Below, one piece after another: positions 13,697 to 47,849 of a stretch of 64,000 bases of DNA. Positions within the stretch are counted from its first letter, which is position 1. Every line of letters begins with the position of its first letter. Both the position numbers and the translations under genes were made by a program. Source of the stretch: Fundidesulfovibrio terrae (lineage in GTDB: Bacteria > Desulfobacterota > Desulfovibrionia > Desulfovibrionales > Desulfovibrionaceae); assembly GCF_022808915.1 (NCBI RefSeq), contig NZ_JAKZFS010000006.1, positions 1-64,000 on the forward strand, read 5' to 3'. Below the pieces are notes generated by a model. It saw only the letters and a list, made by a program, of their open reading frames with translations. It was not told where the DNA came from and did no database searches.

Positions 13697-13779
13697 GCGA
13701 GAGTGGCGGAATTGGTAGACGCACCAGATTTAGGATCTGGCGGGCAACCATGGGGGTTCGAGTCCCCCCTCTCGCACCA
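13697..13779 (+). tRNA. tRNA-Leu (anticodon UAG), CCA encoded
   Basis: The acceptor stem GCGAGAG pairs with CTCTCGC, and the genomic CCA ends at 13779. The anticodon stem CCAGA/TCTGG encloses TTTAGGA, giving anticodon TAG (UAG). The TGGTAGACGC D-arm and GGTTCGAGTCC T-arm are normal, with only a short variable region resolved by eye. Its 3' end is the integration target of the island that follows. Confidence 0.95.
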
Positions 13780-13880
13780 AATCACGGTTCAGGGTGGTCC
13801 GATACGGTCCATAAGTCCTGAAAATAACTAAGAAGCCGGGCTAGAGATAGTCCGGCTTCGTCTTTTGTGGTCCATTGACA
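13762..13880 (+). repeat. att-like repeat A: tRNA-Leu 3' end and terminator (left end of island)
   Basis: This stretch runs from the T-arm/acceptor end of tRNA-Leu through its terminator to a GATCC/GGTCC-ATTGACATCC box. Related copies occur at 38009-38179 (B), 46159-46343 (C) and 47467-47555 (D). All share a GTCCG/AGTCCA box, a CCTGA(T)AAATA box, and GGGCT(C)GAGAGAGTCCGGCTTCGT. Copy C also repeats the tRNA end itself (C6-TCT-GCACCAAATCACG, one base short). This marks A as the left attachment junction. Confidence 0.85.
13833..13866 (+). terminator. Rho-independent terminator of tRNA-Leu
   Basis: AAGCCGG at 13833-13839 pairs with CCGGCTT at 13852-13858 and is followed by CGTCTTTT. The same hairpin is kept, with small changes, in each of the other three att-like copies, so each integration would restore a terminator to the tRNA gene. 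Confidence 0.75.
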
Positions 13881-13887: not shown

Positions 13888-13942
13888 TTTTTGGGGGCAC
13901 TTCTGGGGGCATCGTCAACGTGTCGGAACTTTTGGGGGCACT
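13888..13942 (+). repeat. Candidate integrase arm-type binding sites (TTTTGGGGGCAC repeats)
   Basis: Three direct repeats of the form TTTTTGGGGGCAC, TTCTGGGGGCATC and ACTTTTGGGGGCACT lie between att copy A and the integrase gene. Similar TTTTAGGGGCATT units occur once before copy B (38009-38022) and twice before copy C (46146-46172). Their place, between att core and int, is where arm-type sites for a tyrosine integrase are expected. Confidence 0.6.
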
Positions 13943-14006
13943 TTGACCGAAAATCCCCGGTATCACTGGATGCAGTATGCCGAGGTCCCGGAGGACCCGA
14001 ACCGCC

Positions 14007-15260
14007 ATGGCAAAGAAAGTCCTGCCTCTCACAGATGCGGCCATACGTAACGCCAAGCCTCAGGCCAAAGCTTACAAGCTGTCGGATGGTCTTGGCCTCT
14101 ACGTGGAAATCCTTCCAACTGGGGGGAAGTCCTGGCGGTTCAAGTATCGTTTCGAAGGGCAGGAAAAGCGCCTAGTGTTCGGATTATGGCCGGATGTGAG
14201 CTTGAAGCAGGCCCGGCAGCGCCGTGATGATGCCCGCGCCATGGTGGCGGATGGCGTTGACCCTGGAGAGAAGAGGAAACAGGACACCGCCGCCCAAGCC
14301 GAGGCGCAAGCCGTTCAGGCCGCGACCTTCGAGCTTGTGGCTCGCGAATGGCACGCCGCTCAGGTGCGGACCTGGAGCGAAGGCCACGCCGTCAAGGTTC
14401 TCTCCACCATGGAACAACACCTGTTCCCGGTCTTCGGGGCTGAACCTATTTCCCTGCTACGCGCCCCGGCCATCCTCCCCGTCCTGCGGGCAGTGGAAGC
14501 CAAGGGCATCAACTACACGGCCAAGCGCTTACGCCAGTATTGCGAAGCCGTATTCTCCTACGCCATTGCCACGGGCAGGGCCGAACGCAACGTAGGCGCG
14601 GACCTGCGGGGCGCGTTGGCCCCCTGCAAGGTGACGAACCGTCCGGCCATCGTTGAACCCAAGGCCGTGGGCAAGCTCCTACGAGCCATGGAAGGCTATG
14701 AGGGGAGTCCTGTCACCCTGGCGGCGCTCAAACTGGCCCCGCTCCTGTTCGTGCGTCCTGGCGAGCTTCGGCATGCAGAGTGGGGGGAAATCGACCTGGA
14801 CGCGGAACACGGGCCGCAATGGCTCATTCCTGCCGAGAAAATGAAGATGCGGACGGCGCATATCGTGCCTCTGTCCCGCCAAGCCGTGGAGATCATCACG
14901 GACCTTCACCCCCTGACCGGGGCAGGGCGCTATCTGTTTCCCTGCAACCGGGCCAAAGGGCGCTGCATGTCAAACATGACCATCAATGCCGCCCTGCGGC
15001 GTCTGGGCTATGACCAAGGGGAGCATTGCGCACACGGCTTCCGGGCCATGGCTTCCACGCTCCTGAACGAACAGGGCTGGCCTTCCGACGTGATCGAGCG
15101 CCAGCTTGCTCACGCCCCAAGAAATAAGGTCCGGGCTACTTACAACCGGGCGGAGCATCTGCCGGAACGGCGGCGGATGATGCAGAAGTGGGCGGACTAC
15201 CTGCACACCTTGAAGGCAGGCGGCAAGGTGGTCCCTATTCACAGAGAGAATGTAGGCTGA
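14007..15260 (+). CDS. int: Tyrosine recombinase/integrase (DUF4102, P4-like)
   Basis: A 417-residue site-specific recombinase of the kind that integrates phages and islands into tRNA genes. The N-terminal DUF4102 arm-binding domain (LTDAAIRNAKP, LSDGLGLYVEI) is followed by a core-binding region and the catalytic domain. Catalytic residues are all present: Arg250 (RPGELR), His343 and Arg346 (HGFR), His369 (LAHAP) and Tyr379. The start is set by a GGAGGA site upstream. It is 230 bases from the tRNA-Leu, the usual distance for an integrase at its own att site. It looks intact. Confidence 0.95.
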   Translation: MAKKVLPLTDAAIRNAKPQAKAYKLSDGLGLYVEILPTGGKSWRFKYRFEGQEKRLVFGLWPDVSLKQARQRRDDARAMVADGVDPGEKRKQDTAAQAEAQAVQAATFELVAREWHAAQVRTWSEGHAVKVLSTMEQHLFPVFGAEPISLLRAPAILPVLRAVEAKGINYTAKRLRQYCEAVFSYAIATGRAERNVGADLRGALAPCKVTNRPAIVEPKAVGKLLRAMEGYEGSPVTLAALKLAPLLFVRPGELRHAEWGEIDLDAEHGPQWLIPAEKMKMRTAHIVPLSRQAVEIITDLHPLTGAGRYLFPCNRAKGRCMSNMTINAALRRLGYDQGEHCAHGFRAMASTLLNEQGWPSDVIERQLAHAPRNKVRATYNRAEHLPERRRMMQKWADYLHTLKAGGKVVPIHRENVG

Positions 15261-15529: not shown

Positions 15530-15928
15530 TCAATCACCATCCCCAACTTCGACAACTGCCGTCATCCGGGCATTCACTTCTCTCTTCTCTACATAGAGGC
15601 CTGCGGCCTTGCCGCGAGCGATTTCGGCCGTGATGGCCGCACCCATCTGCCCGGCCTGCGCAGCCTTGTCTCTCAAGACCGCCAGCGTTGACAGGTGCTG
15701 GTCGAGCGTGAGCATAGCCTTTTCAGCTGCAACAGCCCGTAGCGCGGCAATCCTTGAGGAAATTTTAGGGTGGTCGAGGAGCTGTTTCGCACTCTGCCCA
15801 ATAGAAGTTTCCTTCGTATTCACACGTATTTCGTACGATTCGCGATAAGCTGCGGACGCATTTCCATTCAAGACGAAATGTTGGGCAAACGCTTCTTGCT
15901 TCGGGGTCAGAACAGATTGTGTGATCAT
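15530..15928 (-). CDS. Phage terminase small subunit-like protein
   Basis: A 132-residue protein with the N-terminal LTPKQEAFAQHFVLNGNAS segment of phage small terminases: a helix-turn-helix-like region that recognises packaging sites. KAAGLYVEKRE near the C-terminus is also typical. The ribosome site is GGAGGAGG. No large terminase, portal or capsid gene is found in the window. In phage satellites a lone small terminase redirects packaging of a helper phage, and the position here between int and the replication genes fits that model. That role is an inference. Confidence 0.75.
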   Translation of the reverse strand: MITQSVLTPKQEAFAQHFVLNGNASAAYRESYEIRVNTKETSIGQSAKQLLDHPKISSRIAALRAVAAEKAMLTLDQHLSTLAVLRDKAAQAGQMGAAITAEIARGKAAGLYVEKREVNARMTAVVEVGDGD

Positions 15929-16911: not shown

Positions 16912-17052
16912 AGTGGCGCGAGTGGCGCGAGTGGCGCATTGTTCCAGATCATAATATATGTACCGTGTTATTTTCTCTTGATTCAAAGTGAATATAACAA
17001 ATTTCTTCTCGGTAATCCCGAAACACGCGCCACTCACGCCACTCACGCCACT
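16912..17052. repeat. Candidate replication origin: inverted iteron arrays around an AT-rich core
   Basis: Three copies of AGTGGCGC with 9-base spacing (16912, 16921, 16930) face three inverted copies of (G/A)CGCCACT with the same spacing (17027, 17036, 17045). Between them is an 89-base AT-rich stretch (16938-17026). The arrays lie between the primase-helicase gene and the primase-like pseudogene. Iterons flanking an AT-rich unwinding segment next to a P4-type primase gene are what a satellite or plasmid origin would look like. Function is inferred. Confidence 0.55.
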
Positions 17053-19775
17053 CATTGGGGCCTCCCCTTGGCGAACTTGAGCGCTATCCCGGCCAACATC
17101 CTGACCCCACCCGTGCTTTTGTGCAGTTGGACGCCCAGACGTTGCAGGCGTGAGGTAAACTTCTTCCGGCCCAACAGTGGCCCACCCCCCGCTTCCTCAG
17201 CCCAAGATTTATAGTCTGTATAGATGTAACCGCTCGGCGTATGCAGTCCCGGCTCCAGCACACACTGATCCTCGACGAAGGCAGCGACCTGGTCACTGTC
17301 GAGCCTCCATTCCTTCTTGGCTGCTTCGCAGGACTCGGTGCGGGTGAATTCACCGCGCTGGATGACCTCGGCCAGGGCCTCCAGCGCCATGGCCATGATT
17401 CCCGGCAACTCGCTCTTCAGCTTCTCCACCAGCTGCCGGTCCTGCTCCTCTTCCTGGAAAGTCCGGTTGAAGGTCAGGATGTTGGCCCGCCGGAAGAGGG
17501 CGTCCGAGAAGTCCCGAGTATTCGGCATGTGGTTGGTGCCGAACCAGCACGTGCAGAAGGGGTTGAAGTCGAAGGGAGGGCGCATCTTGTGCTCCGCCGT
17601 GGTGAGCTCGCCGGACACGATGGCCTTGAGCTGAGCATCGGCCATTTCATGGCCTTCTGCGATCTCGGTTACGATGTTCACCAGCCTCCCATGCAGGTGC
17701 GCCCGCTGGAAGCGATTGTCGAACTGCGAGGGCTGGACTGCGGCCACCTGTTTAGGCCCGACCAGGGCCGCCAGCACGGCCAACAGGACACTTTTGCCGT
17801 TTGCTCCCGGCCCGATGAGCAACATGAACTTCTCGAAGCGGCAGGTGGCCATGAGGCTGTACCCCATGCATTCCAACACGAGGCGCTTTTTATCCTTTTT
17901 GTCCGGGTCGTCGCGGAAGATTTCGTCCAGGAACTGCAAGAAGCGCGGGGCTGCGGCCTGCGGGTCGTACGCGACCGGTATCTGAGTGGTCCTGTAGCTC
18001 TCGCGGCAATGAGGTCGAAGTTCCCACCGATTGCCTTCCCAATACAATTCCCCGTTGCGCACGTTGACGGCGTCCTGGATGGCATCGAATGCGTGCCCAG
18101 GTCGGAAAGTTTCGTTCACGGCCAGCTTGAAAACCGAATCAACTATCGAGGCCGTCAAATCGTCGACTTCCGCGACCCGATGAACTTTCTTCTTGATCTC
18201 CAGGTCATCCATTTTGCGCCAGACACCAGCCAGATCCCACTTCCAGAAGAAATCCTGCGCATGCAGGAGGTTACCTTCCCCGTACGACTCAATGACGCGC
18301 AGGGCCGTCTCCATGTGGTTGAACTTGTCCCCGTCGCTATCGCCCCCGGAGGCGCGCGCCAGCCTGACGGCTGCCCGCAGATCATGGAGGGAGGTACCGG
18401 TCCTCTTCTTGATGAGCTTCAGCAGATATTCGACGTCGGGGACCGGTAGGCCGCTCTTGGCGATGGCCTCGGCGACCGGCCCCAGGAGTTCGTCGAAGTC
18501 CTCGGTGTCCTTGATACGCGCTTCCAACTCCTGGCGGATGCCGGACGCCTCCTCGCGATTCATGGGCGACTTTTTAGCCTGTTTGTCCGTGCCCAGCGTG
18601 TACTTCTTCTTCCCGTGCGCGTGGGAGAAGATAACAGGGGGCTTGCCGTCCTTCGCGCATATCCACCCAATGTCAGGGTCGTTGTTATAGCCCGGCTCCA
18701 TCGGATCGGCGCAGCGCTTGTCGTGGAATTTGGCGGGCTCGGCCAGAATGTCACGGACGGTTACGGTAGGGCCGTTGTGGAGATGGATTTCCTGATCCTC
18801 GCAGAGTTTACCATTTTCCAGAGACCTGCGGAACAGTTCTTCGATGATGGCGAACTCGGGCTCGCTTTTGGCCGGGTTTTTGACCCTAACCTCTTTCATC
18901 CGCGTGGCGGTCCAGGCTTCCTTTTTCGCGTCCATTTTATCACGCACGACCTCCTTGGCGTGCTGTTTGAGCAGGGCGAGCTTCTTCTTCTCCTCTGGCG
19001 TCAAGTCGTGGAAGGCTGCCCGCGTATCGAGGAATTCGGCGTCCGAGTCGATGATTATGGGCTCCGGCTTCTTCTGGACCAAGCCCGGCCCGAGGACGGC
19101 CGCTCCGGCGAAATCGAGCCGTTCCGGCGACCAGACCGCCGTATCGGTGCAAGAGCGTTCGAGGAGAGCTCCAGATTCGCTCACGTCGTACCGCCCATAC
19201 CCCGCAAGCCAGAGCCGGTCGTGAAGGACCTGCCCGGCCCTAGGTATGTCTGTCGCATCCCGGACGAAGAGATAAGCGCGGAGCCCGCCCGGCCCTTTCA
19301 GGCATTCACCGGTTTGGGTGTAGATATGAGACGACACGCTGGCGGTGACCACCAGCGGCGCTTTTACCAAGCCCGGAGCAACGCTCGTGAAAGCTTCAAG
19401 CAGCCGCTCGGCTGACCAAGGTGTAGAGCCGTCTTTAGGCGGATCGTAATCCGTCATCATTACGCCAGGCCCATCCGGCCACTTGAAGTTTTCCTTTTGG
19501 CGCGTGACCTGCCCAGGCTGGAGATACCCTTGCGTTCCGATGAAGCAGAACTGCTCGGGTCCCAGGCCAAAGCCCAGGGCCTGGCTCGGTTTCAAGTTTT
19601 TGAGAAGCTCGGTGAACTCCAGCGGCGTGACGGCGACGGTTTTGGAATCGCCTTCTGCCATACGACCACCGTTGGACTTCACCAGATTGCCATCTTCGCC
19701 GAGTTTAAATCCTTTGGACAGCTGTGCGGGCCGGGTGGACGTGAACACGGTCAGTTGTGCCTGGGGGCCGATCAT
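17052..19775 (-). CDS. P4-family phage/plasmid primase-helicase (AEP-like + D5N + SF3)
   Basis: A 907-residue replication protein. The N-terminal part looks like an archaeo-eukaryotic primase-type domain (MTDYDPP acidic motif, SSHIY, GLRAYL). A long charged middle and a D5N-like region follow. The C-terminal third is a superfamily 3 helicase: Walker A GPGANGKS with Lys661, then IAEGHEMADAQLKAIVSGE and the FGTNHMP sensor motif. Such proteins prime and unwind DNA at a self-encoded origin in P4-like satellites and plasmids. The start at MIGPQAQ has an AGGAGGG site and overlaps the upstream gene by four bases. Its 3' end abuts the candidate origin. Confidence 0.9.
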   Translation of the reverse strand: MIGPQAQLTVFTSTRPAQLSKGFKLGEDGNLVKSNGGRMAEGDSKTVAVTPLEFTELLKNLKPSQALGFGLGPEQFCFIGTQGYLQPGQVTRQKENFKWPDGPGVMMTDYDPPKDGSTPWSAERLLEAFTSVAPGLVKAPLVVTASVSSHIYTQTGECLKGPGGLRAYLFVRDATDIPRAGQVLHDRLWLAGYGRYDVSESGALLERSCTDTAVWSPERLDFAGAAVLGPGLVQKKPEPIIIDSDAEFLDTRAAFHDLTPEEKKKLALLKQHAKEVVRDKMDAKKEAWTATRMKEVRVKNPAKSEPEFAIIEELFRRSLENGKLCEDQEIHLHNGPTVTVRDILAEPAKFHDKRCADPMEPGYNNDPDIGWICAKDGKPPVIFSHAHGKKKYTLGTDKQAKKSPMNREEASGIRQELEARIKDTEDFDELLGPVAEAIAKSGLPVPDVEYLLKLIKKRTGTSLHDLRAAVRLARASGGDSDGDKFNHMETALRVIESYGEGNLLHAQDFFWKWDLAGVWRKMDDLEIKKKVHRVAEVDDLTASIVDSVFKLAVNETFRPGHAFDAIQDAVNVRNGELYWEGNRWELRPHCRESYRTTQIPVAYDPQAAAPRFLQFLDEIFRDDPDKKDKKRLVLECMGYSLMATCRFEKFMLLIGPGANGKSVLLAVLAALVGPKQVAAVQPSQFDNRFQRAHLHGRLVNIVTEIAEGHEMADAQLKAIVSGELTTAEHKMRPPFDFNPFCTCWFGTNHMPNTRDFSDALFRRANILTFNRTFQEEEQDRQLVEKLKSELPGIMAMALEALAEVIQRGEFTRTESCEAAKKEWRLDSDQVAAFVEDQCVLEPGLHTPSGYIYTDYKSWAEEAGGGPLLGRKKFTSRLQRLGVQLHKSTGGVRMLAGIALKFAKGRPQ

Positions 19776-20344
19776 TGATGGCCCTCCTGCCCGGCCGCCG
19801 GGACCGCGAAGATGTTCCCCATAAAATTTTGGGTAATCAAGCTGAACGAGAAACCCAGCGACACGCAGGGCCAAGACCATCTGAATACCGCGAAGGCACG
19901 TTGTAAGCGCCTCCAAAGGGGGCACTTATCCACTTCGTAGAATACGGCCAGCACCTTTCCCTTGCCGCCGGGGACCAAATGGTCCCCGAACCAGTCCAAG
20001 CAATTGGCGATCAAGGCGGCCAGGTAGATCAAGAAGGTGGGCTTACCCACCTCAGGGGCCCCAGATACGAAACCGAGCTTTCCGGTCAAGAAAGAGTCGA
20101 GAAACACCCAGACCAGCGAGAGCAGATCGAGGTTGATGATGATCCCCGACTTGTGTGCAATGATGTCAAACCCGGTATAGAAACCGGGCTTGGTCGAGTC
20201 TTCCTTCTCACCGATCGAGCCCACCCCCGCCGTGAATTTTTCCTGCCGGGCGGGCATATGGGCCAGGGCCGCCTCGATGGCAGCCGAATCGTCACCCACG
20301 GACTGCTGGCTCGCGACGGAGCCAAAGTAATAGAGAGCACCCAT
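19772..20344 (-). CDS. RepA/AAA_25-like ATPase, shortened and with damaged Walker A
   Basis: A 190-residue protein resembling the first half of RepA-type hexameric helicases (AAA_25). FVSGAPEVGKPTFLIYLAALIAN aligns with the usual GxPGxGKTT Walker A, but the residue after Lys is Pro and the second Gly is Glu, so ATP binding is doubtful. VPGGKGKVLAVFYEVDK matches the next family segment. The last 40 residues do not resemble the family, and the usual C-terminal half is missing. TGATG coupling joins it to the gene before, and ATGA to the primase. It is probably a decayed helicase gene that is still translated. Confidence 0.6.
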   Translation of the reverse strand: MGALYYFGSVASQQSVGDDSAAIEAALAHMPARQEKFTAGVGSIGEKEDSTKPGFYTGFDIIAHKSGIIINLDLLSLVWVFLDSFLTGKLGFVSGAPEVGKPTFLIYLAALIANCLDWFGDHLVPGGKGKVLAVFYEVDKCPLWRRLQRAFAVFRWSWPCVSLGFSFSLITQNFMGNIFAVPAAGQEGHQ

Positions 20345-34237: not shown

Positions 34238-34331
34238 GTTCCGCCTCCTGGAGGTTTAAGTTCGCACTATCTTCTGCCTTACGATCAACACCGCCTGGAA
34301 AACCCTTCGGGCCGATTGATTAGCACGACCC

Positions 34332-34354
34332 ATTAAGATTTTCCATGTCTTAAT
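34332..34354. promoter_or_regulatory. Inverted repeat ATTAAGA-N9-TCTTAAT upstream of the pentaheme gene
   Basis: A perfect 7-bp inverted repeat lies in the 126-base gap between chrA and the pentaheme cytochrome gene. It is a candidate operator for the downstream part of the cluster. No clear -10/-35 pair was found near it. Confidence 0.3.
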
Positions 34355-34363
34355 TGAAAAGTA

Positions 34364-36395: not shown

Positions 36396-36599
36396 GGTGT
36401 TGCCTCCAATACGGAATCGTCGGCCTAAGCTCCAGGACAAAAGGAGAGGCCCAGCATAGCCCACCGTATGCACCCTGGCCCCTAGGAAGAGAAGGAAAAA
36501 GTGGGAGTGATGGCGATCAAATCACGAGGCGTGGTTGACCAGGGTCTGAACAATTCCCTATCTACCAGCATGGAAAAATGCCGGTATGGAGGGCGAGCC

Positions 36600-37631: not shown

Positions 37632-38008
37632 CTTAGTTTTTGGAGGGCGGGCAAAGGATCAGAACAGGTTCTCAGAGATGCCAAAGAGCACGTGTAAATC
37701 GTGTGTAAAACACGTGTCCCTTCATGGGATTTCATGGCCCAATGTGTTTACATAATTTACTGATATTGCTCATGAATCAAGTACGAATTGGGCGGGGCCA
37801 CAGTTCTGTCACGCCAGTCACGCCGGTAAGCCCAAAGGAGCCCCTTTTACGACAGCTGTTACGATACGGGTGCCGGGAAACGTCGTAAAATCGACGCAAA
37901 TTGTCGTAAATTATTCCATTTTATTCCATAATTACAGCGCATAGCCTTACACCCGCCTACCTTGGGCGCAGGGGGCCTAACTGGGGCAGGGTACACCGGC
38001 AGCGTTTG
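37632..38008. other. Non-coding stretch with origin-like repeats
   Basis: No gene is seen. Two 9-base units ACGCCAGTC and ACGCCGGTA at 37811-37828 resemble the iterons near the primase-helicase gene at 17 kb. TTTTACGACA at 37845-37854 is mirrored by TGTCGTAAAT at 37902-37911, with further TTACGA and TCGTAAA copies between. This may be the remains of the replication origin of an older element that ended at att copy B. Confidence 0.4.
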
Positions 38009-38179
38009 ATTTTAGGGGCATTGAAGAAAATAAAATTTATTTAATTCAACTAACACAGGTGTTTATTTGCCAAATACCGAGCCATCTGCATCCGGGTGGT
38101 CCAAAGAAGTCCACAATCCCTGATGAATACGGAGAAGCTGGGCTCGAGAGAGTCCGGCTTCGTCTTTTTTGATCCATGG
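38009..38179 (+). repeat. att-like repeat B with one arm-type site
   Basis: It starts with ATTTTAGGGGCATT, continues through an AT-rich segment (TTTATTTAATTCAACTAA) shared with copy C, and ends with the shared AAGAAGTCCACA, CCTGAT-AATAC and GGGCTCGAGAGAGTCCGGCTT boxes and a GATCCATGG end. The tRNA-end core is degenerate here (missing CACCAAATCACG). Aligned with C it is a direct repeat of about 170 bases flanking the nar operon. Confidence 0.8.
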
Positions 38180-38334
38180 AATCCCGACCATCCCCCAAAA
38201 GCAAGCCCGCGAGGTAGGCCAAAAAACAGACTACGGCATCCCGGCGCTGAAAGCGACTTGCACTGAAACTCGAGAATCGCCCCGAAAACGCCCTCCACTC
38301 CCCTCTCTCACGCTTCATTCCCGTCAATTTTGCA

Positions 38335-38363
38335 TTGACCCTCTATCTCCGCTTGTCTAGATA
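38335..38363 (+). promoter_or_regulatory. Candidate promoter of the nar operon
   Basis: TTGACC and TAGATA are separated by exactly 17 bases; the -10 ends 89 bases before the narG ATG. No FNR-type TTGAT-N4-ATCAA site was found around it. It lies inside the element, 156 bases right of att copy B, so the operon carries its own promoter. Confidence 0.5.
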
Positions 38364-38452
38364 CTGAAATATGGTTCCTTGTTTTCCTGGACTGATTTCC
38401 CTCTCCCCCGACCTGTTTTTAGGGGGATGTCCACACTTCGAAAGGGGAGCGT

Positions 38453-41400
38453 ATGAACGAAGAAAAATATCTTTCGTTGCGCTATCTCAGGCGGCGCGCC
38501 GATGAAGTTCGCGACATATGGCAGGGGGTGACCCTCAGCGAGACCAAACAAGGGCGGCGCTGCTGGGAAGACTACTACCGGCGGCGCTGGCAGCACGACA
38601 AAACGGTGCGTTCCACCCACGGAGTGAACTGCACCGGCTCCTGCTCCTTCGACGTGTTCGTCAAGGACGGGTTGATCGTCTGGGAGGCGCAACGAACCGA
38701 TTACCCCACCCCCCACCCGGATTTCCCCGATTACGAACCCCGAGGCTGCCCGCGCGGGACCTCCGCCTCCTGGTATGTGTACAGCCCCTCCAGGGTGAAG
38801 TACCCATACGTCCGCTCGGCGCTTCTCACGGCCTGGCGCGAGGCCAAGGCCAATCATTCCGACCCTGTGGAGGCCTGGGCCAGCATCGCCGACAACCCCG
38901 ACAGGTCGAGGCCCTACAAGAAGGCCCGGGGAAAGGGAGGACTGGTGCGCTTCTCCTGGGAGGAAGCCGCCGAACTGGTGGCCGCCTCCCTGGTGCACAC
39001 CATCAAGACCCGTGGTCCAGACCGCATCTTCGGCTTCACCCCAATACCGGCCATGTCCATGGTGAGCTACGCTTCAGGATCTCGCTTTCTGTCACTCATC
39101 GGGGCCAGCATGCTGAGCTTCTACGATTGGTATTGCGACCTACCCCCGGCCTCGCCCCAGATTTGGGGCGACCAGACCGACGTGCCCGAGAGCGCGGACT
39201 GGTACAACGCCGGGTACATCCTCGTCTGGGGCTCCAACCTGCCTCAGACCCGCACCCCGGACGTACATTTCTTCACGGAGTCCCGCTACAGGGGGGCCCG
39301 CGTGGCGGCGGTGTCCCCGGACTACTCCGAATACGCCAAGTTCGCCGACCACTGGTTGGCGGCTCGGGCCGGGACCGACGGCGCCCTGGCCATGGCCATG
39401 GTCCACGTAGTGCTCAAGGAATTCTACCTGGATCGCCAGGTCCCCTACTTTCAGAACTATGCTCGACGCTTCACGGACCTGCCCTTCCTGGTCCTGTTGG
39501 AAAAGGAGAGTGAAAACCTCAGCGCAAGGCGGTTTCTGCGAGCCTCGGACATCGGGCGCTCTGGCAACAATCCGGAGTGGAAAACCGTGGTCTTCGACAG
39601 TAGCCGCAAGGGACCCGCGGTGCCCCGGGGGAGCATCGGCTGTCGCTGGGGCGAGGAAGGGGCCTGGAACCTCGAGATGCGTGACTGCCAGGACGGACAG
39701 GAGATCGATCCATGCCTCACCCTGGCCGGAAATCCACAAGCACACTGGGTTGAGGCTTCCTTCCCGATTTTCGGGATCGAGGGCCCGGCGATGCGCCCGG
39801 GTCTGGTCCCAGCCCTCGGGCTTCGTTTTGAAGGCAAGGAACTCCTGGTGGCCACTGTCTTCGATCTTTTCGCGGCCAGCCTCGGCCTGGATCGGGGCAA
39901 AAGCGGTCGGGCCGCCAAGGATTACGACGATCCCGAAGCCTGTACCCCGGCCTGGCAGGAAGGCATAACCGGAGTGCCCAGGCAGGACGTCATCCGGGTG
40001 GCCCGGGACTTCGCCCGCAACGCGGAGGCAACGGGCGGAAAATCCCTGATCTGCATGGGGTCCGGGATCAACCACTGGTTCAACAACGACGCCACCTATC
40101 GGACCATCATCAGTTTGGCCATGCTCTGCGGTTGCGAGGGGGTCAACGGTGGCGGTTGGGCCCACTACGTGGGGCAGGAGAAGGTCCGTCCCCTGGCCGG
40201 TTGGGCCACACTGGCCTTCGGCCTGGACTGGAGCACCCCCCCCAGGCACCAGAACGGCACCTCCTTCTTCTATTTCGCCACGGACGCCTGGCGCTACGAC
40301 CCAATGAACACACAGTCGATGTGCCCGCCGGACGGCAAGGGGGTGATCCCCCTTCATCCAGCCGACTGCAACGCTGTGGCAGCCCGGCTCGGATGGTTGC
40401 CGTCCTACCCGCAATTCGGCGAGAATCCGCTGGAGGTCTGCCGAGAGGCCGAAGCGAATGGGGCGGCAACGGACCAAGCCATCGTCGACCGCGTTGCCGA
40501 GCGATTGCGCTCGGGCGACCTGACCATGGCCGCTGAAAATCCTGGCAATCCGGACAACCATCCGCGCGTGCTTTTCTTCTGGCGGGGCAACGTGCTCGGT
40601 TCGAGCGGCAAGGGGCACGAATACTTCCTGAAACACCTCCTGGGCGCGGACAACGCCGTGCTCCAGGACGAGTCCGAGGTCCGGCCGTGCGAATTCCCTT
40701 GTTACCCCGCGGATCCCGACGGGAAGCTCGACCTGCTGGTCACCTCGGAAATCCGCATGAACACCAGCACGCTGTATTCGGACGTGATCCTGCCTGCCTC
40801 CCACTGGTATGAGATGCACGATCTGTCCTCCACGGACATGCACCCCTTCGTGCACCCCTTCACTCCGGCGATGGACCCCCCCTGGGAGGCCCGGACCAAC
40901 TGGGACCAGTTCAAGGCCATAGCCGAGGCCTTCACCCCCATGGCCGAGAAGCATCTGGGTGTCCGCAAGGACCTGGTGGCCTCACCGCTAGTCCACGACA
41001 CCCCGGACGAACTCGCCCAGCCTATGGGTCAGGTGCGCGACTGGCGCAAGGGGGAAACCGAGGCCATCCCGGGCAAGACCATGCCCAAGTTCAAGGTGGT
41101 CGAGCGGGACTACGGGGCGATTCTCAAGAAGTATGGCTCGCTCGGCCCTGAGATCAGGGGCGAGGCCGGTATAAGGATCAAGGGCCTCGCCTGGAGCGCG
41201 GCCAAGGAGCACGACCAGCTCAAGGAGCGTCTGGGCACGGTGGCCGAGGCGGGCGTGAGCCACGGCCTGCCCCGGATCGACACCGGTCGTGACGCCTGCG
41301 AGGTCATCCTGACCCTCTCCCCGGAAACCAACGGCGCGGTGGGGGTGCGTTCCTGGAAATCCTTGGAGAAAAAGACCGGGCTTTCGCTCTCAGACCTCTC

Positions 41401-42154
41401 CGAGGAGAAGCAGGGGCATTTCATCACCTTCGAGGCCATCACTGCGAGGCCCGGCAAGGTCATGACCAGCCCCGTCTGGAGCGGCATCGAGACCGGGGGG
41501 CGCACCTACTCGCCCTTCGTCCAGAGCATCGAACGGCTCATCCCCTTCCGAACCCTTTCCGGACGCCAGCACTTCTTTGTGGACCACGCCTGGATGCTTG
41601 CCCTTGGGGAGGGCCTGCCCGTGTACAAGCCTCCCCTGGACATGGAAAACCTAGGCACCTTGACCGGCAAGCGCATCCCACGCACCGGGCGGGAGCTCGT
41701 GCTCAATTATCTCACGCCCCACAGCAAGTGGTCCATACACTCCATCTATTCCGACACGATGCATATGACCACCATGTCGCGCGGCGGCAAGGCTGTCTGG
41801 CTCAACAACGAGGATGCGGCACAGGCGAGCATAGCCGACAACGACTGGGTGGAGTGCTACAACGCGAGCGGGGTCTTCATGGGGCGGGCTGCGGTCAGCC
41901 ACCGCATCCCACGGGGCAAGGCGATCGTGTACCATGCCAAGGAGCGTTTCCTGCAGACTCCCTTTTCCAACGTGTCAGGCAAACGCGGCGGCACGCACAA
42001 CAGCGTGACTCGCATTCATATGAAGCCCACCCAGATGATCGGCGGGTACGCACAGCTGAGTTACGGATTCAACTACTACGGACCAACCGGTGCCCAACGC
42101 GACGAAATGGTGTTGGTGAGAAAGGCGGGGGAGGTGCATTTCGATGAAGATTAA
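38453..42154 (+). CDS. narG: Respiratory nitrate reductase alpha subunit (molybdopterin)
   Basis: A 1233-residue catalytic subunit that reduces nitrate to nitrite at a Mo-bis-MGD centre. The FS0 cluster ligands are His56, Cys60, Cys64 and Cys99, the His-plus-three-Cys pattern of NarG. The Mo ligand Asp225 is in LSFYDWYCDLPPAS, six or fewer residues shifted from E. coli numbering. No Tat signal with a hydrophobic core is seen, so the enzyme should face the cytoplasm. The GGGGAG site sets the start. It overlaps narH by 11 bases. Its length matches the family, and it appears intact. Confidence 0.96.
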   Translation: MNEEKYLSLRYLRRRADEVRDIWQGVTLSETKQGRRCWEDYYRRRWQHDKTVRSTHGVNCTGSCSFDVFVKDGLIVWEAQRTDYPTPHPDFPDYEPRGCPRGTSASWYVYSPSRVKYPYVRSALLTAWREAKANHSDPVEAWASIADNPDRSRPYKKARGKGGLVRFSWEEAAELVAASLVHTIKTRGPDRIFGFTPIPAMSMVSYASGSRFLSLIGASMLSFYDWYCDLPPASPQIWGDQTDVPESADWYNAGYILVWGSNLPQTRTPDVHFFTESRYRGARVAAVSPDYSEYAKFADHWLAARAGTDGALAMAMVHVVLKEFYLDRQVPYFQNYARRFTDLPFLVLLEKESENLSARRFLRASDIGRSGNNPEWKTVVFDSSRKGPAVPRGSIGCRWGEEGAWNLEMRDCQDGQEIDPCLTLAGNPQAHWVEASFPIFGIEGPAMRPGLVPALGLRFEGKELLVATVFDLFAASLGLDRGKSGRAAKDYDDPEACTPAWQEGITGVPRQDVIRVARDFARNAEATGGKSLICMGSGINHWFNNDATYRTIISLAMLCGCEGVNGGGWAHYVGQEKVRPLAGWATLAFGLDWSTPPRHQNGTSFFYFATDAWRYDPMNTQSMCPPDGKGVIPLHPADCNAVAARLGWLPSYPQFGENPLEVCREAEANGAATDQAIVDRVAERLRSGDLTMAAENPGNPDNHPRVLFFWRGNVLGSSGKGHEYFLKHLLGADNAVLQDESEVRPCEFPCYPADPDGKLDLLVTSEIRMNTSTLYSDVILPASHWYEMHDLSSTDMHPFVHPFTPAMDPPWEARTNWDQFKAIAEAFTPMAEKHLGVRKDLVASPLVHDTPDELAQPMGQVRDWRKGETEAIPGKTMPKFKVVERDYGAILKKYGSLGPEIRGEAGIRIKGLAWSAAKEHDQLKERLGTVAEAGVSHGLPRIDTGRDACEVILTLSPETNGAVGVRSWKSLEKKTGLSLSDLSEEKQGHFITFEAITARPGKVMTSPVWSGIETGGRTYSPFVQSIERLIPFRTLSGRQHFFVDHAWMLALGEGLPVYKPPLDMENLGTLTGKRIPRTGRELVLNYLTPHSKWSIHSIYSDTMHMTTMSRGGKAVWLNNEDAAQASIADNDWVECYNASGVFMGRAAVSHRIPRGKAIVYHAKERFLQTPFSNVSGKRGGTHNSVTRIHMKPTQMIGGYAQLSYGFNYYGPTGAQRDEMVLVRKAGEVHFDED

Positions 42155-43565
42155 AGCCCAGATAGGTATGGTCCTCAATCTTGACAAATGCCTAGGCTGC
42201 CACACATGTAGCCTTCCCTGCAAGAACGTTTGGACCACAGCGCCAGGCACCGAATACATGTGGTACAACAACGTTGAGACCAAGCCGGGCATTGGCTACC
42301 CCAAGGAATGGGAGAATCAGGAGCGCTGGAAGGGCGGCTGGAAACTCAGGCGCGGTCATCTCTCCCTGGCTGCCGGAAACCGGGCTTTCAAGTTGGCCGC
42401 CATATTCGCCAACCCCGATCTGCCGCTCCTCGACGACTATTACGAGCCCTGGACCTACGATTACCAGAACCTGGCCGCGAGCCCACCCACCCGACACCAG
42501 CCCATCGCCAGAGCGCTTTCCGTGGTGACCGGCAAGCCCATCGACCCAGGGTGGGGGCCGACCTGGGAGGACGACTTGGCCGGTGTCCCCGTAACCGGGC
42601 TCAAGGACGTCAACTTTCGATCCATGGAGGCCAAGGCCTTCCTGGATTTCCAGAACGTGTTCATGCTCCATGTCCCCAGGTTGTGCGAACACTGCATGAA
42701 CCCCGCCTGCCTGGCCTCCTGCCCGTCCGGGGCCATCTACAAGCGCGACGAGGACGGAATCGTGCTCATCAACCAGGAGAAGTGCCGAGGCTGGCGCTAC
42801 TGCGTGTCCGGCTGCCCCTACAAGAAGAGCTACTTCAACTGGAAGACCTCCCGCTCCGAAAAGTGCATCTTCTGCTATCCCCGCATCGAGGCCGGGCTGC
42901 CTACCCTGTGCGCACATTCTTGCGTGGGGCGCATCCGCTACATCGGGGTAGTGCTCTACGACGCGGACAAGGTGCGCGAGGCAGCCGAGACACCGCGCGA
43001 GACGGACATCTACGAGGCCCAGCTTTCCCTGTTCCTGGACGCGAACGACCCGGCAGTGGCAAGGCAGGCACGACTCGACGGCATCCCCGACGCGGTGGTC
43101 GAGGCCGCCAGCCGCTCGCCGGTCCACTCCCTGGCCGTGAAGTGGCGTTTGGCTCTGCCTCTTCACCCGGAGTTCCGCACTCTGCCCATGGTTTGGTACG
43201 TCCCGCCGCTGTCCCCCCTGACCGGCGGCGACCTGGAGGACGGCATGGTGCTGGACTCCATGCGCATCCCTGTGCGCTACCTGGCCAACATGCTGACCGC
43301 CGGGAATGAAGGGCCGGTGCGCCAGGCCCTGTGCCGTCTGCTTGCACTGCGCCGCTTCATGCGCGCCAAGCGGGTTGAGAATAAACAGGCCCATGAGCCA
43401 CTGGAGGAAGCAGGGCTTGCGCCGGAAACGGCCGAGGCCATGTACAGACTGCTGGCTGTTGCCCGGCTTAAGGATCGGTTTGTGATCCCCACTACCCGGC
43501 GAGAATTCGCTGAGGACGTCCAGGCACTCAAAGCCTCGGCGGGCTTTCCTGGAGGCCGGACATGA
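42144..43565 (+). CDS. narH: Respiratory nitrate reductase beta subunit (Fe-S)
   Basis: A 473-residue electron-transfer subunit with four cysteine groups. The first is Cys16, Cys19, Cys22 and Cys26 (CLGCHTCSLPC). The others are CEHCMNPACLASCP, CRGWRYCVSGCPY and CIFCYPRIEAG with a later C. The Trp in CRGWRYC marks the 3Fe-4S cluster, as in other NarH. It passes electrons from NarI hemes to NarG. It starts inside narG with a GGGGAGGTG site and overlaps narJ by four bases. Confidence 0.96.
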   Translation: MKIKAQIGMVLNLDKCLGCHTCSLPCKNVWTTAPGTEYMWYNNVETKPGIGYPKEWENQERWKGGWKLRRGHLSLAAGNRAFKLAAIFANPDLPLLDDYYEPWTYDYQNLAASPPTRHQPIARALSVVTGKPIDPGWGPTWEDDLAGVPVTGLKDVNFRSMEAKAFLDFQNVFMLHVPRLCEHCMNPACLASCPSGAIYKRDEDGIVLINQEKCRGWRYCVSGCPYKKSYFNWKTSRSEKCIFCYPRIEAGLPTLCAHSCVGRIRYIGVVLYDADKVREAAETPRETDIYEAQLSLFLDANDPAVARQARLDGIPDAVVEAASRSPVHSLAVKWRLALPLHPEFRTLPMVWYVPPLSPLTGGDLEDGMVLDSMRIPVRYLANMLTAGNEGPVRQALCRLLALRRFMRAKRVENKQAHEPLEEAGLAPETAEAMYRLLAVARLKDRFVIPTTRREFAEDVQALKASAGFPGGRT

Positions 43566-44143
43566 ACCCGGAGCTTGCCCAAAGAGCGGCCATGGGGGGG
43601 CAGAACACAGTCTTGCCGATGCTCGACAGCCAAACGCGGCTGCTGGTTCGCTGCGCCTCGGCGCTCCTGCGCTACCCGGACGACGACTTGCGAGGCGCTG
43701 TCCGCAATATCCGGGCGCTGCTCAGCGAGATGGCCTCCGGAATGGTTCCGGTTCTGGAACGCATCCTGGACCACATGGAGGAGACCCCGATGCACCGCCT
43801 CCAGCAGGACTACGCCCGCACCTTCGACTTGGACACACAGGCAAGCCTGCACCTATCCTGGCACCGTTACGGGGACGACCCGAAACGGGGCCGGGCCCTG
43901 GCCGGTCTCATGGAACTCTACCGGGATGCGGGGTACGAGGTTCTGCCGGGTGAATTGCCCGACTTCCTTCCCTTGGTCCTGGAGTTCCTTTCGGAGTGTC
44001 CGGACTGGGCCGCCCATTGCCTCATGGATGGTTTCGGATGCCAGATGCGCAACGTGGCCGCGCATTTGGAGAAGACGCAAAGCCCCTATGCCCCCGTGCT
44101 CGGGGCCGCTCTCGACGCCTTGAGGGTGAAGGAGGAAACATGA
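43562..44143 (+). CDS. narJ: Nitrate reductase assembly chaperone
   Basis: A 193-residue TorD/NarJ-type helical chaperone needed to insert the Mo cofactor into NarG. The signature RLQQDYARTFDLDTQASLHL and the PDFLPLVLEFLSECP segment are family-typical. It is cytoplasmic and not part of the final enzyme. It overlaps both neighbours by four bases (ATGA), which keeps the subunits in ratio. Confidence 0.93.
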   Translation: MNPELAQRAAMGGQNTVLPMLDSQTRLLVRCASALLRYPDDDLRGAVRNIRALLSEMASGMVPVLERILDHMEETPMHRLQQDYARTFDLDTQASLHLSWHRYGDDPKRGRALAGLMELYRDAGYEVLPGELPDFLPLVLEFLSECPDWAAHCLMDGFGCQMRNVAAHLEKTQSPYAPVLGAALDALRVKEET

Positions 44144-44817
44144 GCTTCCTGAGCCAGTTATTTTTCGTTCTGTTTCCGTACATCTGTCTGGCCGTAATGA
44201 TCGCGGGACATTTCTACCGCTACTTCTTCAACCCGGGCGGCTGGAACGCCCGGTCCAGCGAGATATTCGAAAACAGGAGACTGAAAATCGGTTCGCTCCT
44301 GTTCCACTATGGCATCATATTGGCTTTCTTCGGCCACTTCTTCGGCCTGCTCACGCCGGATGCACTCGTCTCGGGCCTGGGAATCCCTGACGAGGTGCAC
44401 ATGGCCTTCGCCAAGCACACGGGCAGGGCGTTCCTGATCCTGGTCCTGGCCGGACTGCCCATCCTCATCCACAGAAGGCTCAAGGACCCCCGGGTGGCCG
44501 CCACCTCCCGGCCCGCAGACATACTGGTCCTGTTGCTCATCCTGGCTTCCGCGTTGCTGGCAGCCATCCAGCTTTTCATCCTTCAGCACAACGTGCTCGA
44601 AACCGTCGCTCCCTGGATACGCAGCATCGTGATCTTCAATCCGCAGCCCGAACTCATGGACAAGGCTCCCTTCATTCTCAAGCTCCATGTGGTCATCGGC
44701 TTCATCATCTTCGCGCTGTACCCGTTTACGAGGTTGGTGCACATCGCCAGTGTCCCCGTGGTCTACCTGACGCGTCCATTCATCATTTTCAGGAGACGTG
44801 ATGATTGCAGCTCCTGA
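44140..44817 (+). CDS. narI: Respiratory nitrate reductase gamma subunit (cytochrome b)
   Basis: A 225-residue inner-membrane protein with five transmembrane helices that oxidises quinol. The four heme b ligands are conserved: His56 and His66 (FHYGIILAFFGHFFG), His183 and His201. His56 and His66 have the same numbers as in E. coli NarI. The start is fixed by a GGAGGA site and overlap with narJ. Its last 17 bases overlap the next gene. Confidence 0.95.
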   Translation: MSFLSQLFFVLFPYICLAVMIAGHFYRYFFNPGGWNARSSEIFENRRLKIGSLLFHYGIILAFFGHFFGLLTPDALVSGLGIPDEVHMAFAKHTGRAFLILVLAGLPILIHRRLKDPRVAATSRPADILVLLLILASALLAAIQLFILQHNVLETVAPWIRSIVIFNPQPELMDKAPFILKLHVVIGFIIFALYPFTRLVHIASVPVVYLTRPFIIFRRRDDCSS

Positions 44818-45880
44818 AGGGTTTCGGCAAAGGGGCATGGCGATGCTGGCAGGGATGTCCCCGGCCAATTTCGCCATGGTCATGTCCACGGGGATCGTGT
44901 CCGTGGCTCTGGAACTGCTCGGACACCAGACCCCGGCCCGGTTTCTCTTCCGGCTGAACATCCTCCTGTACGTCCTGCTGTGGATGCTCTATCTGCTGCG
45001 CCCGGTCTTTTCTCCGGGCACCTTCCGAGCCGACCTTTCCGACCATGCTCGGGGGCCCGGATATCTAACCGCCATCGCAGCCACCTGCATCCTGGGAACC
45101 CAGTTCGTCCTGTTCGATCAGGCTTTTGCCATCGCGCTCGGGCTTCTGGGCCTGGGGTTGCTCTTGTGGATGGTGATTCTGCCGGGACTTTTCGTGGCCC
45201 TGGCCGTCAGGTCCGAGAAACCCAAGCTGGCCCAAGGCATCAACGGAACGTGGCTGGTGGCGGTGGTGGGCACCCAGGCCGTGGCCACCCTGACCTGCAC
45301 GCTTTCCGGCCAGGCGCCATCCCCCGACGTCTTGAGTCAAGAGGTGGCCTTCCTGTTCTCGCTGTGCCTGTTTTGCGTCGGGGGGATGCTCTACATGCTG
45401 CTCATGCCCCTGATCGTTTGCCGGCTGCTCTTCTCGCCGGTTGCACCGGCCGACCTGCAGCCGTCCTACTGGATCAACGCCGGAGCGGCGGCCATCAGCA
45501 CCCTGGCCGGAGCTTTGCTGGCGACCAGGGCAGGGGAATCACACTTGCTGTCCTCGGTCCTCCCCTTCGTAAAGGGGGCAACCGTGTTCTTTTGGGCCAC
45601 GGCCTCCAGTTGGCTCCCCCTGCTCTTCATCCTGGGGTTCTGGCGACACTTCATTCGCCGCCACCCGTTCGAGTACTCGCCACACTATTGGGGACTGGTG
45701 TTCCCAATGGGAATGTACACGGCCTGCACCGTAAGGCTGTCACAAACGCTGGGCCTGGATTTCCTCATGGCCGTACCCCGCGGTTTCCTCTTCGCCGCCA
45801 TCACGGCATGGCTTCTGACGTTTGTCGGGATGATCCGACGCACCGGTTCTTTGTTGATGCGCGCCCAGAGGAAAAAGTGA
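44801..45880 (+). CDS. TDT/TehA-SLAC1 family transporter in the nar operon
   Basis: A 359-residue membrane protein with ten hydrophobic helices. It belongs to the tellurite-resistance/dicarboxylate transporter family (TehA, plant SLAC1), shown by SPANFAMVMSTGIVSVAL and later INGTWLVAVVGTQAVATL and FWRHFIRRHPFEYSPHYWG. Plant SLAC1 homologues are anion channels permeable to nitrate and chloride. No narK/nasA-type carrier is present, so this protein may move nitrate in or nitrite out (inference). The start is an ATG with an AGGAG site inside the narI end; an adjacent GTG 3 bases before is possible. Confidence 0.9.
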   Translation: MIAAPEGFRQRGMAMLAGMSPANFAMVMSTGIVSVALELLGHQTPARFLFRLNILLYVLLWMLYLLRPVFSPGTFRADLSDHARGPGYLTAIAATCILGTQFVLFDQAFAIALGLLGLGLLLWMVILPGLFVALAVRSEKPKLAQGINGTWLVAVVGTQAVATLTCTLSGQAPSPDVLSQEVAFLFSLCLFCVGGMLYMLLMPLIVCRLLFSPVAPADLQPSYWINAGAAAISTLAGALLATRAGESHLLSSVLPFVKGATVFFWATASSWLPLLFILGFWRHFIRRHPFEYSPHYWGLVFPMGMYTACTVRLSQTLGLDFLMAVPRGFLFAAITAWLLTFVGMIRRTGSLLMRAQRKK

Positions 45881-45884
45881 TACA

Positions 45885-46015
45885 ATTGGGGTGATGCTCT
45901 CAGGCGTCGAGTCTGAGGCTTTGGCCCAGCCCCCCCTGCTTCCCGAGTTGGGCGAGCGGGCAACCCGTTCATTGACGTGCAGGACAAGGTGAATGCCAAG
46001 TGGGGGAAAGGTCAC
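45885..46015 (+). pseudogene. Decayed C-terminal fragment of a second umuC
   Basis: Starting 4 bases after the transporter stop, the frame IGVMLSGVESEALAQPPLLPELGERA matches the intact UmuC segment VGVMLSGIESEASAQFSLLP at 25995-26050. After a frame change, DKVNAKWGK matches DRVNAKWGR. Only this tail remains. It shows that another umuC once lay here and that the nar operon's right edge was joined to it. Confidence 0.8.
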
Positions 46016-46145
46016 TCGGAGGGCACCCACAGGGGCGGGAAAGTCGTCAAGTCACAGCCGAGCGTTGCGGATTCAAGCTGGGGATCGGAGTGTAGCCGAG
46101 GCAGAAAGGGGAGTAATCTGCTCCAGTAAAAAAGAGGCAGCCTCG

Positions 46146-46343
46146 CATTTTAGGGGCATTTTTAGGGGCATTGAAGAAAATAGGATTTATTTAATTCAAC
46201 TAATACACATATTTATTTGCTTAATAATAGGCCCCCCTCTGCACCAAATCACGATCCAGGGTGGTCCAAGGAAGTCCACAAGCCCTGATAAATACTGGGA
46301 AGCCGGGCTCGAGAGAGTCCGGCTTCGTCTATTTTGATCCATT
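46146..46343 (+). repeat. att-like repeat C with two arm-type sites and a tRNA-Leu 3' end copy
   Basis: Two TTTTAGGGGCATT units (46146-46172) precede the AT-rich segment shared with copy B. Then comes C6-TCT-GCACCAAATCACG (46232-46253), a copy of the tRNA-Leu 3' end and its flank with one base missing. The hairpin AAGCCGG...CCGGCTT and TTTTGATCC-ATTGACATCC follow, as in copy A. This is the best right-end attachment junction for the island that starts at A. Confidence 0.85.
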
Positions 46344-46373
46344 GACATCCAGCATTTCGGGGGAGCAGGGAAT

Positions 46374-46538
46374 ATGGGGGCGGAGCTCTTGGGAGCCTTG
46401 AAGTCCGGCGCGAAGACCATCCCGATTCACCGGGAGGGGCGCGGAGTGGCAAAAGCGAAGGGTAACTTCGCCGTGAGGCGCGCCGTCCTGTTTAACGAGG
46501 TAAAGAAGTCAAAGGCCACTCGAAGCAATTCAATATGA
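46374..46538 (+). pseudogene. Remnant of an integrase C-terminus
   Basis: A 54-residue frame begins GAELLGALKSGAKTIPIHRE, which matches the last residues of the intact integrase (YLHTLKAGGKVVPIHRE, 15200-15245). It continues through a basic tail to a stop. The catalytic domain is gone. It lies 30 bases right of att copy C, as expected for the leftover of another int gene next to its att site. Confidence 0.75.
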
Positions 46539-47427: not shown

Positions 47428-47466
47428 AGTGCAAGGCCGTCCCTGCGCTGGATTATAATGCGTATC

Positions 47467-47555
47467 GGCCCCAAGAAGTCCACAAACCCTGATAAATACT
47501 CTGAAACCGGGCTCGAGAGAGTCCGGCTTCGTTTTTATTATCCGTGGACACCCAG
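47467..47555 (+). repeat. att-like repeat D (partial)
   Basis: It contains AAGAAGTCCACAAACCCTGA, TAAATACT, CGGGCTCGAGAGAGTCCGGC, CGTTTTTATTATCC and GTGGACACCCAG, each matching copies A-C with few changes. The tRNA 3' end itself is absent. It is probably the outermost scar of integration at this locus. Confidence 0.75.
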
Positions 47556-47594: not shown

Positions 47595-47849
47595 TCAGGC
47601 GAGCACCGAACTAGTCAGTTGCTCCACCTTGATGCCCAACGCCGTCGCGACCTTGGCCAGGGTAGCCCGGCGGGGTCTGGCTGATTTTGCCTCAATCTGC
47701 TCCAGTGCCGCAGGCGATATGCCCATCCGTGTGGCCACCTGCTCCTTGGTTAAACCCAGGTGTTCGCGCCAAGCGCGAGCGAGGCTTTTCCGCCCCTTGT
47801 TGGCGATCGCTGAAACTTCCAGGGGGATGGTCACTTCTTCGTTGCTCAT
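47595..47849 (-). CDS. XRE-family helix-turn-helix regulator (antitoxin-like)
   Basis: An 84-residue protein with a Cro/C1-type HTH: WREHLGLTKEQVATRMGIS, PAALEQIEAKSARPRRATLAKVATALG. The short length and C-terminal position of the HTH resemble HigA/HicB-type antitoxins or phage repressors. No toxin gene is recognised next to it. No ribosome site precedes the ATG; a promoter placed so that transcription would begin at the ATG suggests a leaderless mRNA. Confidence 0.8.
   Translation of the reverse strand: MSNEEVTIPLEVSAIANKGRKSLARAWREHLGLTKEQVATRMGISPAALEQIEAKSARPRRATLAKVATALGIKVEQLTSSVLA

Follow-up and report, generated by a model that had tools for sequence, protein, structure and literature searches.

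A narGHJI operon as probable cargo of an integrative element stacked behind tRNA-Leu in Fundidesulfovibrio terrae

The narGHJI nitrate respiration operon studied here lies in a 64,000-nucleotide stretch of the Fundidesulfovibrio terrae genome (the window; assembly GCF_022808915.1, contig NZ_JAKZFS010000006.1, positions 1 to 64,000, forward strand). It is very probably the cargo of an integrative element, called element B, in a head-to-tail stack of tyrosine-integrase elements behind a tRNA-Leu gene. This reading was built on what could be established directly: the genes, the anatomy of the junctions, a near-empty site in a congener, and the distribution of narG. A first-pass annotation of the same DNA had described the operon as a recently gained cassette between direct repeats. 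Comparison genomes and loci are given by their numbers (G and L).

The nar operon and the element stack

The genes narG, narH, narJ, and narI were all over the curated NCBIfam equivalog cut-offs (4/4) and formed a single operon at 38453-44817 on the + strand, in which adjacent genes overlapped by 4-20 nt. The start of narI follows the E. coli NarI alignment; the open reading frame (ORF) as listed starts at 43996. The best solved relatives of NarG, NarH, and NarI were the E. coli NarGHI chains. In NarG, both the FS0 motif HGVNCTGSC and the segment FYDWYCD were kept; NarH had 16 cysteines, and His56, His66, His183, and His201 of NarI aligned with four E. coli NarI histidines, which are presumably haem ligands. 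The histidine and cysteines of the NarG FS0 motif, the NarG aspartate, and the NarH cysteines are likewise taken to be the FS0, molybdenum, and cluster ligands, respectively, and all of these positions were present. The earlier claim of a complete narGHJI with conserved cofactor ligands was therefore upheld by the four models and the E. coli alignments. The operon is predicted to encode an active respiratory nitrate reductase of the NarGHI type.

A promoter of its own, which had also been claimed for the operon, was not confirmed: a scan of 37600-38600, limited to sigma-70-like sites, found 0. A terminator-like stem (38134-38161) was located within the repeat upstream of narG. The terminator scan gave 2 terminator-like sites, with 1.4 expected from shuffles, so a terminator in front of narG is not proven by the scan alone.

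The direct repeats of about 170 bases reported around the operon are real, with 81% identity over 191 aligned positions. Two blocks make up the repeat, one of 87 nt (91%) and one of 67 nt (88%). The 87-nt block occurred in four copies, not two, in the 3.9 Mb genome (E≤0.001), and all four were in this array; ends of an insertion sequence or transposon and a dispersed repeat were rejected on that basis. The first copy was directly 3' of tRNA-Leu, ahead of a P4-type integrase. Arm-like sites of the pattern TTTT[A/G]GGGGCA were found at 13889, 13930, 38010, 46148, and 46160, each adjoining a repeat copy, and no sixth site under this pattern was found on either strand of the 64-kb window. The arm motif was defined post hoc on the window, and a search for the arm pair in 288 genomes of the family was used as an independent check.

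With one mismatch allowed, the arm pair was found at 8 sites in 6/288 genomes, and the reversed-pattern control gave 0. Six of the eight sites were in four genomes with the same integrase family at the same locus (two in F. terrae, two in G212, and one each in G259 and G270); the other two were in G114 and G077. The pair marked the far end of elements carrying an integrase of this family in G259, G212, and G270. The first arm and the displaced CACCA were 93 nt apart behind nar in F. terrae; G259, G260, and G270 showed the same spacing, and G212 had 95 nt. On the right side of the G259 element, the displaced tRNA end was followed by a terminator-like hairpin of a different kind.

Relatives of the integrase at E≤1e-90 occurred in 152/288 family genomes. 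Twelve integrase loci near the top of the relatives list were fetched, and they lay directly behind tRNA-Leu (7), tRNA-Ser (3), or tmRNA (2); a thirteenth, in G061, lay behind tRNA-Val. The RNA 3' end was followed by a match to the left end of the window array in 10/12 of these loci, while L216 matched in short pieces only. Integrase relatives were also found at 28 loci on viral contigs and in 194 phage records, all of the latter with less than 60% identity. A second integrase of the same family was present in the F. terrae genome itself, beside the tmRNA gene (L223, G000:C5:90000-109900).

From these comparisons, the hairpin block is read as the left end of an element, and the arms with the displaced tRNA core as its right end. 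On this reading, the repeats flanking nar most likely mark places where stacked integrative elements meet head to tail. Each insertion would have rebuilt the tRNA 3' end at the left, added its own hairpin block, and displaced the older element rightward, leaving the order A, B, C, and block D from tRNA-Leu. Since newer elements would insert beside the tRNA, element B should be older than A.

Element A covers 13.79-38.09 kb (24 kb) and carries the integrase, terminase small subunit, and primase genes, followed by SOS-type, transport, and cytochrome genes. Its integrase, primase, and terminase small subunit agree with the gene set of P4/PICI phage satellites. Element B (38.09-46.25 kb) holds nar and a SLAC1/TDT-family gene, and element C begins at 46.26 kb. 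An integrase remnant in element C was supported by tblastn (54% over residues 406-427, E 0.022) and by blastn against the integrase 3' end in L218 (76% over 59 nt, E 1.6e-5). The stack as a whole has the form of an island, with an integrase beside the tRNA 3' end and a displaced tRNA 3' end on the far side. No relaxase or type IV secretion gene was found among the island ORFs scanned with Pfam, which were a subset of the ORFs and received no dedicated search for these systems. The coordinates are given in Table 1.

Elements A and B might also be one composite element moved by the integrase of A, the inner junction being a later duplication of the right end. The lack of an integrase in element B and the agreement between the arm motifs of A and B fit this, but the inner junction also has a complete hairpin block. 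The blocks of B and C are 91% identical, whereas that of A is 78% and 82% identical to them, and separate arrivals fit these values better. A composite origin was judged unlikely, and A and B are treated as separate elements. The integrase of element A might still be able to excise B.

Table 1. Features of the tRNA-Leu locus and the nar operon in the window
Feature	Position	Strand	Basis
tRNA-Leu, attachment gene, anticodon-tagged	13697..13779	+	ARAGORN; same left flank in 6/6 congeners
Left-end hairpin/terminator block, element A	13792..13878	+	D1 repeat; 97% over 146 nt to G139 left end
Two arm-like sites TTTTGGGGGCA (13889, 13930)	13889..13940	+	Window motif scan
Tyrosine integrase, P4 type, intact ORF, element A	13977..15260	+	Pfam Arm-DNA-bind_3, Phage_int_M, Phage_integrase
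Terminase small subunit-like, element A	15530..15928	-	Pfam Terminase_2 7e-9; PHROG 51 5e-13
P4-family primase/helicase, element A	17052..19925	-	TIGR01613 over cut-off; DNA primase PHROGs
Element A right end, decayed, with a single arm-like site (38010) and an eroded tRNA 3' end	38010..38094	+	88% over 67 nt to element B right end
Left-end hairpin block, element B (stem 38134-38161)	38094..38180	+	D1 repeat; terminator scan
narG, nitrate reductase catalytic subunit	38453..42154	+	TIGR01580 1734 bits; alignment with E. coli NarG
narH, iron-sulfur subunit, 16 Cys	42144..43565	+	TIGR01660 750 bits; E. coli NarH alignment
narJ, Mo-cofactor insertion chaperone	43562..44143	+	TIGR00684 90 bits, over cut-off
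narI, cytochrome b subunit	44140..44817	+	TIGR00351 208 bits; E. coli NarI alignment
SLAC1/TDT-family anion channel, fifth operon gene	44798..45880	+	Pfam SLAC1 158 bits; AlphaFold and Foldseek
Paired arm-like sites, element B right end	46148..46170	+	Arm-pair pattern, 288-genome search
Displaced tRNA-Leu 3' end CCCCCCTCTGCACCA, element B attR core, one base missing relative to tRNA	46232..46246	+	Spacing as in G259, G260, G270
Left-end hairpin block, element C	46259..46345	+	D1 repeat; 91% to element B copy
Integrase C-terminus remnant, element C	46380..46445	+	tblastn, blastn
Hairpin block D, adjoins HTH gene, chromosomal side	47463..47549	+	D1 repeat; like block in G137, G139
XRE-type helix-turn-helix (HTH) gene, chromosomal side of right junction	47595..47849	-	Reading frame; family name by inspection

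The left flank and tRNA-Leu were present in 7/7 genomes of the genus (F. terrae and six congeners). G137 has a near-empty site: behind its tRNA-Leu come a single block and, next, the same HTH gene, with no integrase. The nearest matched right-flank gene in G137 is about 3 kb from tRNA-Leu, with an enoyl-CoA-hydratase-like gene and other ORFs between. At the DNA level, the HTH gene in the window is 75% identical to L142 and L143 over 268 nt. The sister species G139 also has this gene, placed after the right side of an element whose integrase is 89-90% identical to that of element A and whose terminase small subunit is 70% identical to that of the window. The cargo of the G139 element (L143, G139:C4:14000-33900, 2896-12644) is a TtrB/NrfD/TtrA-like operon together with this terminase gene; its TtrA-like protein scored 447 bits with a cut-off of 1750, and a different respiratory enzyme is probable. 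At the same locus, G140 has genes for carbonic anhydrase, CheW, and others between tRNA-Leu and the right flank; G135 has GGDEF and phospholipase D genes, G138 an iron alcohol dehydrogenase, and G136 a DctP protein. The congener intervals were scanned in part, and the stretches of G136 and G138 end before the right flank, which leaves those two intervals open.

Several observations at the locus weigh against the reading of nar as cargo of a separate element B. The only integrase match by tblastn in 38.1-46.2 kb was at chance level (E 4.7), the motif scan found no arm sites on the left side of B, and the first 280 nt of B matched none of the fetched element ends. Without an integrase and left arm sites, B is recognised as a separate element by its two ends, and, lacking an integrase, it would be at most a cis- or trans-mobilisable remnant. 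Erosion has affected the A/B junction at 38010-38094. In G137, G138, and G140, tRNA-Leu is likewise followed by a hairpin block, with no integrase found beside it, and G135 and G136 are without the block. In these integrase-free congeners the block could be native or the scar of an earlier insertion, and for this reason the G137 site cannot be called pristine. A DUF6976 gene lies at 49405-50547, and its matches in congeners sit on other contigs than the tRNA-Leu locus; the region 47.9-52 kb may therefore hold a further insertion.

Two additional groups of genes were observed in element A. Genes for a cytochrome c, an MtrC/F-like cytochrome, and a chromate transporter lie at 31477-35518 on the minus strand. 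On the right side, a DUF1259 (PF07485) gene at 35532-36473 adjoins a beta-propeller gene at 36501-37631.

Distribution and origin of nar

Within the genus, narG was over the cut-off only in F. terrae (1/7), and 6/7 of the genus genomes are at least 96% complete. In the family, 7/288 genomes had narG over the cut-off, and two more (G082 and G110) had strong split pieces. The first-pass statement that nitrate-reducing Desulfovibrionaceae have Nap and Nrf rather than membrane-bound Nar was too strong in view of these counts. Desulfovibrionaceae narG is not named in the available portions of PMC10823672 or PMC9137090. Among the titles and abstract openings of the open-licence papers found, none ties narG to an island in this family.

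A NarG tree of 87 rows was built by a quick method from the window sequence, six family rows, and the best 80 of at least 594 loci, with L123 and L124 left out for length. The window NarG grouped with six NarG of the same family with a Shimodaira-Hasegawa-like approximate likelihood ratio (SH-aLRT) support of 100. Three other delta-type rows joined next (SH-aLRT 100), apart from the proteobacterial rows. One of these three, L039, is labelled Myxococcota in the tree and titled Deltaproteobacteria. An actinobacterial row from a metagenome-assembled genome (MAG), L067, was placed on a long branch just outside the window clade. No full-length relative in the tree exceeded 66% identity to the window NarG.

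The patchy distribution of narG would agree with nar having come recently from a proteobacterium outside the delta-type lineages. Such a transfer was judged highly improbable. NarG identity was 50-54% to the 77 other loci among the best 80 of at least 594, versus 58-70% within the window clade, which the tree separates at SH-aLRT 100, and the composition of nar is host-like. A foreign proteobacterial nar was rejected on this tree. NarG was also found on plasmids, with 172 records at E≤1e-100, 171 of them below 60% identity; on viral contigs, four pattern matches to nar were obtained and none was confirmed.

Composition was compared with 7.5-kb host pieces from 20 stretches (400 kb of the 3.9 Mb genome). 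For nar, 22/80 host pieces were at least as deviant, which gives no support for a foreign origin and is a further point against the cargo reading. Three pieces of element A were atypical (3/80 each). The value for 46.3-49.4 kb was 0/80, but this stretch of 3.1 kb is not like-for-like with 7.5-kb pieces. The cargo reading is also weakened by other genomes with nar: in G061, G042, and G062, placement of nar within such an element was not established, and in G061 the integrase was about 20 kb from nar, with no displaced tRNA copy found in 59 kb.

The same-family grouping and the host-like composition are what would be expected if nar were an old vertical trait of the family and elements had merely inserted on either side of it. 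Against this, narG occurs in a single genus genome although most of the seven are nearly complete, nar is flanked precisely by a hairpin block on one side and, on the other, by a right end with the 93-nt spacing, and in G137 the HTH gene comes directly after tRNA-Leu and one block. Vertical descent at this locus is thus improbable, and arrival of nar as cargo of element B is preferred. From the tree grouping and composition, this arrival was probably not recent, nor from a distant proteobacterium. The operon would probably represent an old delta-type lineage that was brought to the locus on an element.

The cassette with recent gain proposed in the first-pass annotation was therefore retained in part. 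Lateral arrival, repeat boundaries, and restriction to one genus genome agree with it. The word "recent" is unsupported in view of the host-like composition of nar, the lack of an integrase in element B behind a better-preserved element A, and the grouping of NarG within the family. The annotation had named a NarG grouping with vertical relatives as an argument against gain, and such a grouping was partly found, at the level of the family.

Neighbouring genes of nar were observed in two other members of the clade. In G111 (L118, G111:C32, 961-6867), a formate-dehydrogenase-like alpha/beta pair is found upstream of nar together with a molybdenum-cofactor-like gene, and a formate-nitrate respiration unit is possible. 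In the delta-type MAG L039 (5781-7526), a 581-aa protein upstream of nar has a weak partial match to hydrazine dehydrogenase.

The SLAC1/TDT channel and nitrate physiology

The operon has a fifth gene, absent from the first-pass annotation, which overlaps the end of narI and encodes a SLAC1/TDT-family protein. Its AlphaFold model, built from 7 sequences, had a predicted local distance difference test score (pLDDT) of 77. Among the best 23 Foldseek matches, 17 titles name SLAC1 or TehA, five name an "At S1" or "S3" trimer, probably of the same plant family as SLAC1, and one names no protein. The TM-scores by query length were 0.54-0.66. A profile of the TDT alignment gave four matches among PDB sequences, all weak and all to an aldolase (best E 0.23).

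The gene is linked to the window type of nar. Seventy loci had at least 1200 nt of room beside nar. A TDT gene was within 52 nt of narI on the same strand in 6/6 loci of the window NarG clade that extend past narI (L039, L117, L118, L119, L121, and L123, with L118 counted although its contig ends inside the TDT gene). An adjacent TDT gene was found in 0/65 loci outside the clade, 2 of which have one 2.9-3.5 kb away. NarK (TIGR00886) was over the cut-off in 0/11 genomes, 9 with narG and several incomplete, and the best match in F. terrae was 46.6 bits with a cut-off of 311.7.

NarG acts in the cytoplasm, so nitrate must enter the cell and nitrite must leave it, and the most straightforward proposal is that the channel does so. 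It would probably replace NarK in nitrate uptake and/or nitrite export. The TDT family also includes malate, sulfite, and tellurite-linked members, which counts against this assignment of the substrate. No paper linking narGHJI with TehA, or SLAC1/TehA with nitrate reductase, was found in the open-licence PMC literature, a search that probably missed reviews.

The genome of F. terrae carries dsrA (597 bits), in agreement with the earlier view of a likely sulfate reducer, and NrfA (515 bits). NapA (TIGR01706) was over the cut-off in 0/7 genus genomes, with a best score of 113 bits in F. terrae; the cut-off may miss short NapA, as a shorter protein in G135 matched at 475 bits. A second nar operon in the F. 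terrae genome was considered and rejected. The other NarJ-family match, on contig C2, lies beside TtrA-like and TtrB-like genes (L125, G000:C2:30000-46000, 7442-12916) that scored 1058 bits (cut-off 1750) and 289 bits (cut-off 416), and from these neighbours it is probably a TorD-like chaperone.

In the proposed pathway, NarI would oxidise menaquinol on the outside, and NarG would reduce nitrate in the cytoplasm after insertion of the Mo cofactor by NarJ. The SLAC1/TDT channel would let nitrate in and/or nitrite out. Nitrite would then be converted to ammonium by the chromosomal NrfA.

Comparison with known systems and meaning

The locus was compared with four known systems. Desulfotignum phosphitoxidans is a sulfate reducer with NarGHI, as in the window; its growth on nitrate was tested, and nitrate is converted to ammonia (PMC4046663). 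NarGHI in a sulfate reducer is therefore already published. In the accessible text of that paper, phosphite genes, not nar, are linked to an island.

Dehalococcoides has vinyl chloride respiration islands at ssrA (PMC3146451), which resemble the window in placing a respiratory reductase operon in an island at a small stable-RNA gene. The two differ in enzyme, phylum, and element family: the window site is tRNA-Leu, the integrase is of P4 type, and the nar element lacks its own integrase. In Thermus thermophilus, an entire nar operon is mobile and varies between strains, being carried on the nitrate respiration conjugative element (NCE; PMC5748679, PMC6282519), and a complete operon as a mobile trait is also the case proposed here. 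The genes of the Thermus operon are narCGHJIKT, beside a regulatory operon (PMC6394727), whereas the window has a SLAC1/TDT gene, no NarK, and a stack of elements docked at a tRNA gene.

P4-like satellites and phage-inducible chromosomal islands share with element A the P4-type integrase, P4-family primase, and terminase small subunit. Element A differs from them in its 24-kb size and its transport and cytochrome genes. The case in F. terrae is a mobile nar cassette in a dsrA-bearing organism; respiratory islands, mobile nar, and NarGHI in a sulfate reducer are already known.

The dock shared with a different respiratory cargo in G139 is the point of greatest interest. The tRNA-Leu site of the genus might tentatively be seen as an exchange dock for anaerobic-respiration cassettes on satellite-like elements, with nar and SLAC1 in F. 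terrae and the Ttr-like operon in G139. Electron acceptors would then be swapped by site-specific recombination, perhaps with packaging by a helper phage. This wider idea is rather doubtful at present; if true, a site at which sister species hold two different respiratory cargoes would offer a clean system for studying electron-acceptor exchange.

Through such a stack, sulfate reducers could acquire or lose nitrate respiration by a concrete route; this matters for the control of souring by nitrate and for the competition between sulfate reduction and nitrate reduction. The fifth gene adds a candidate SLAC1-type channel as a nitrate/nitrite transporter in a bacterial nar operon.

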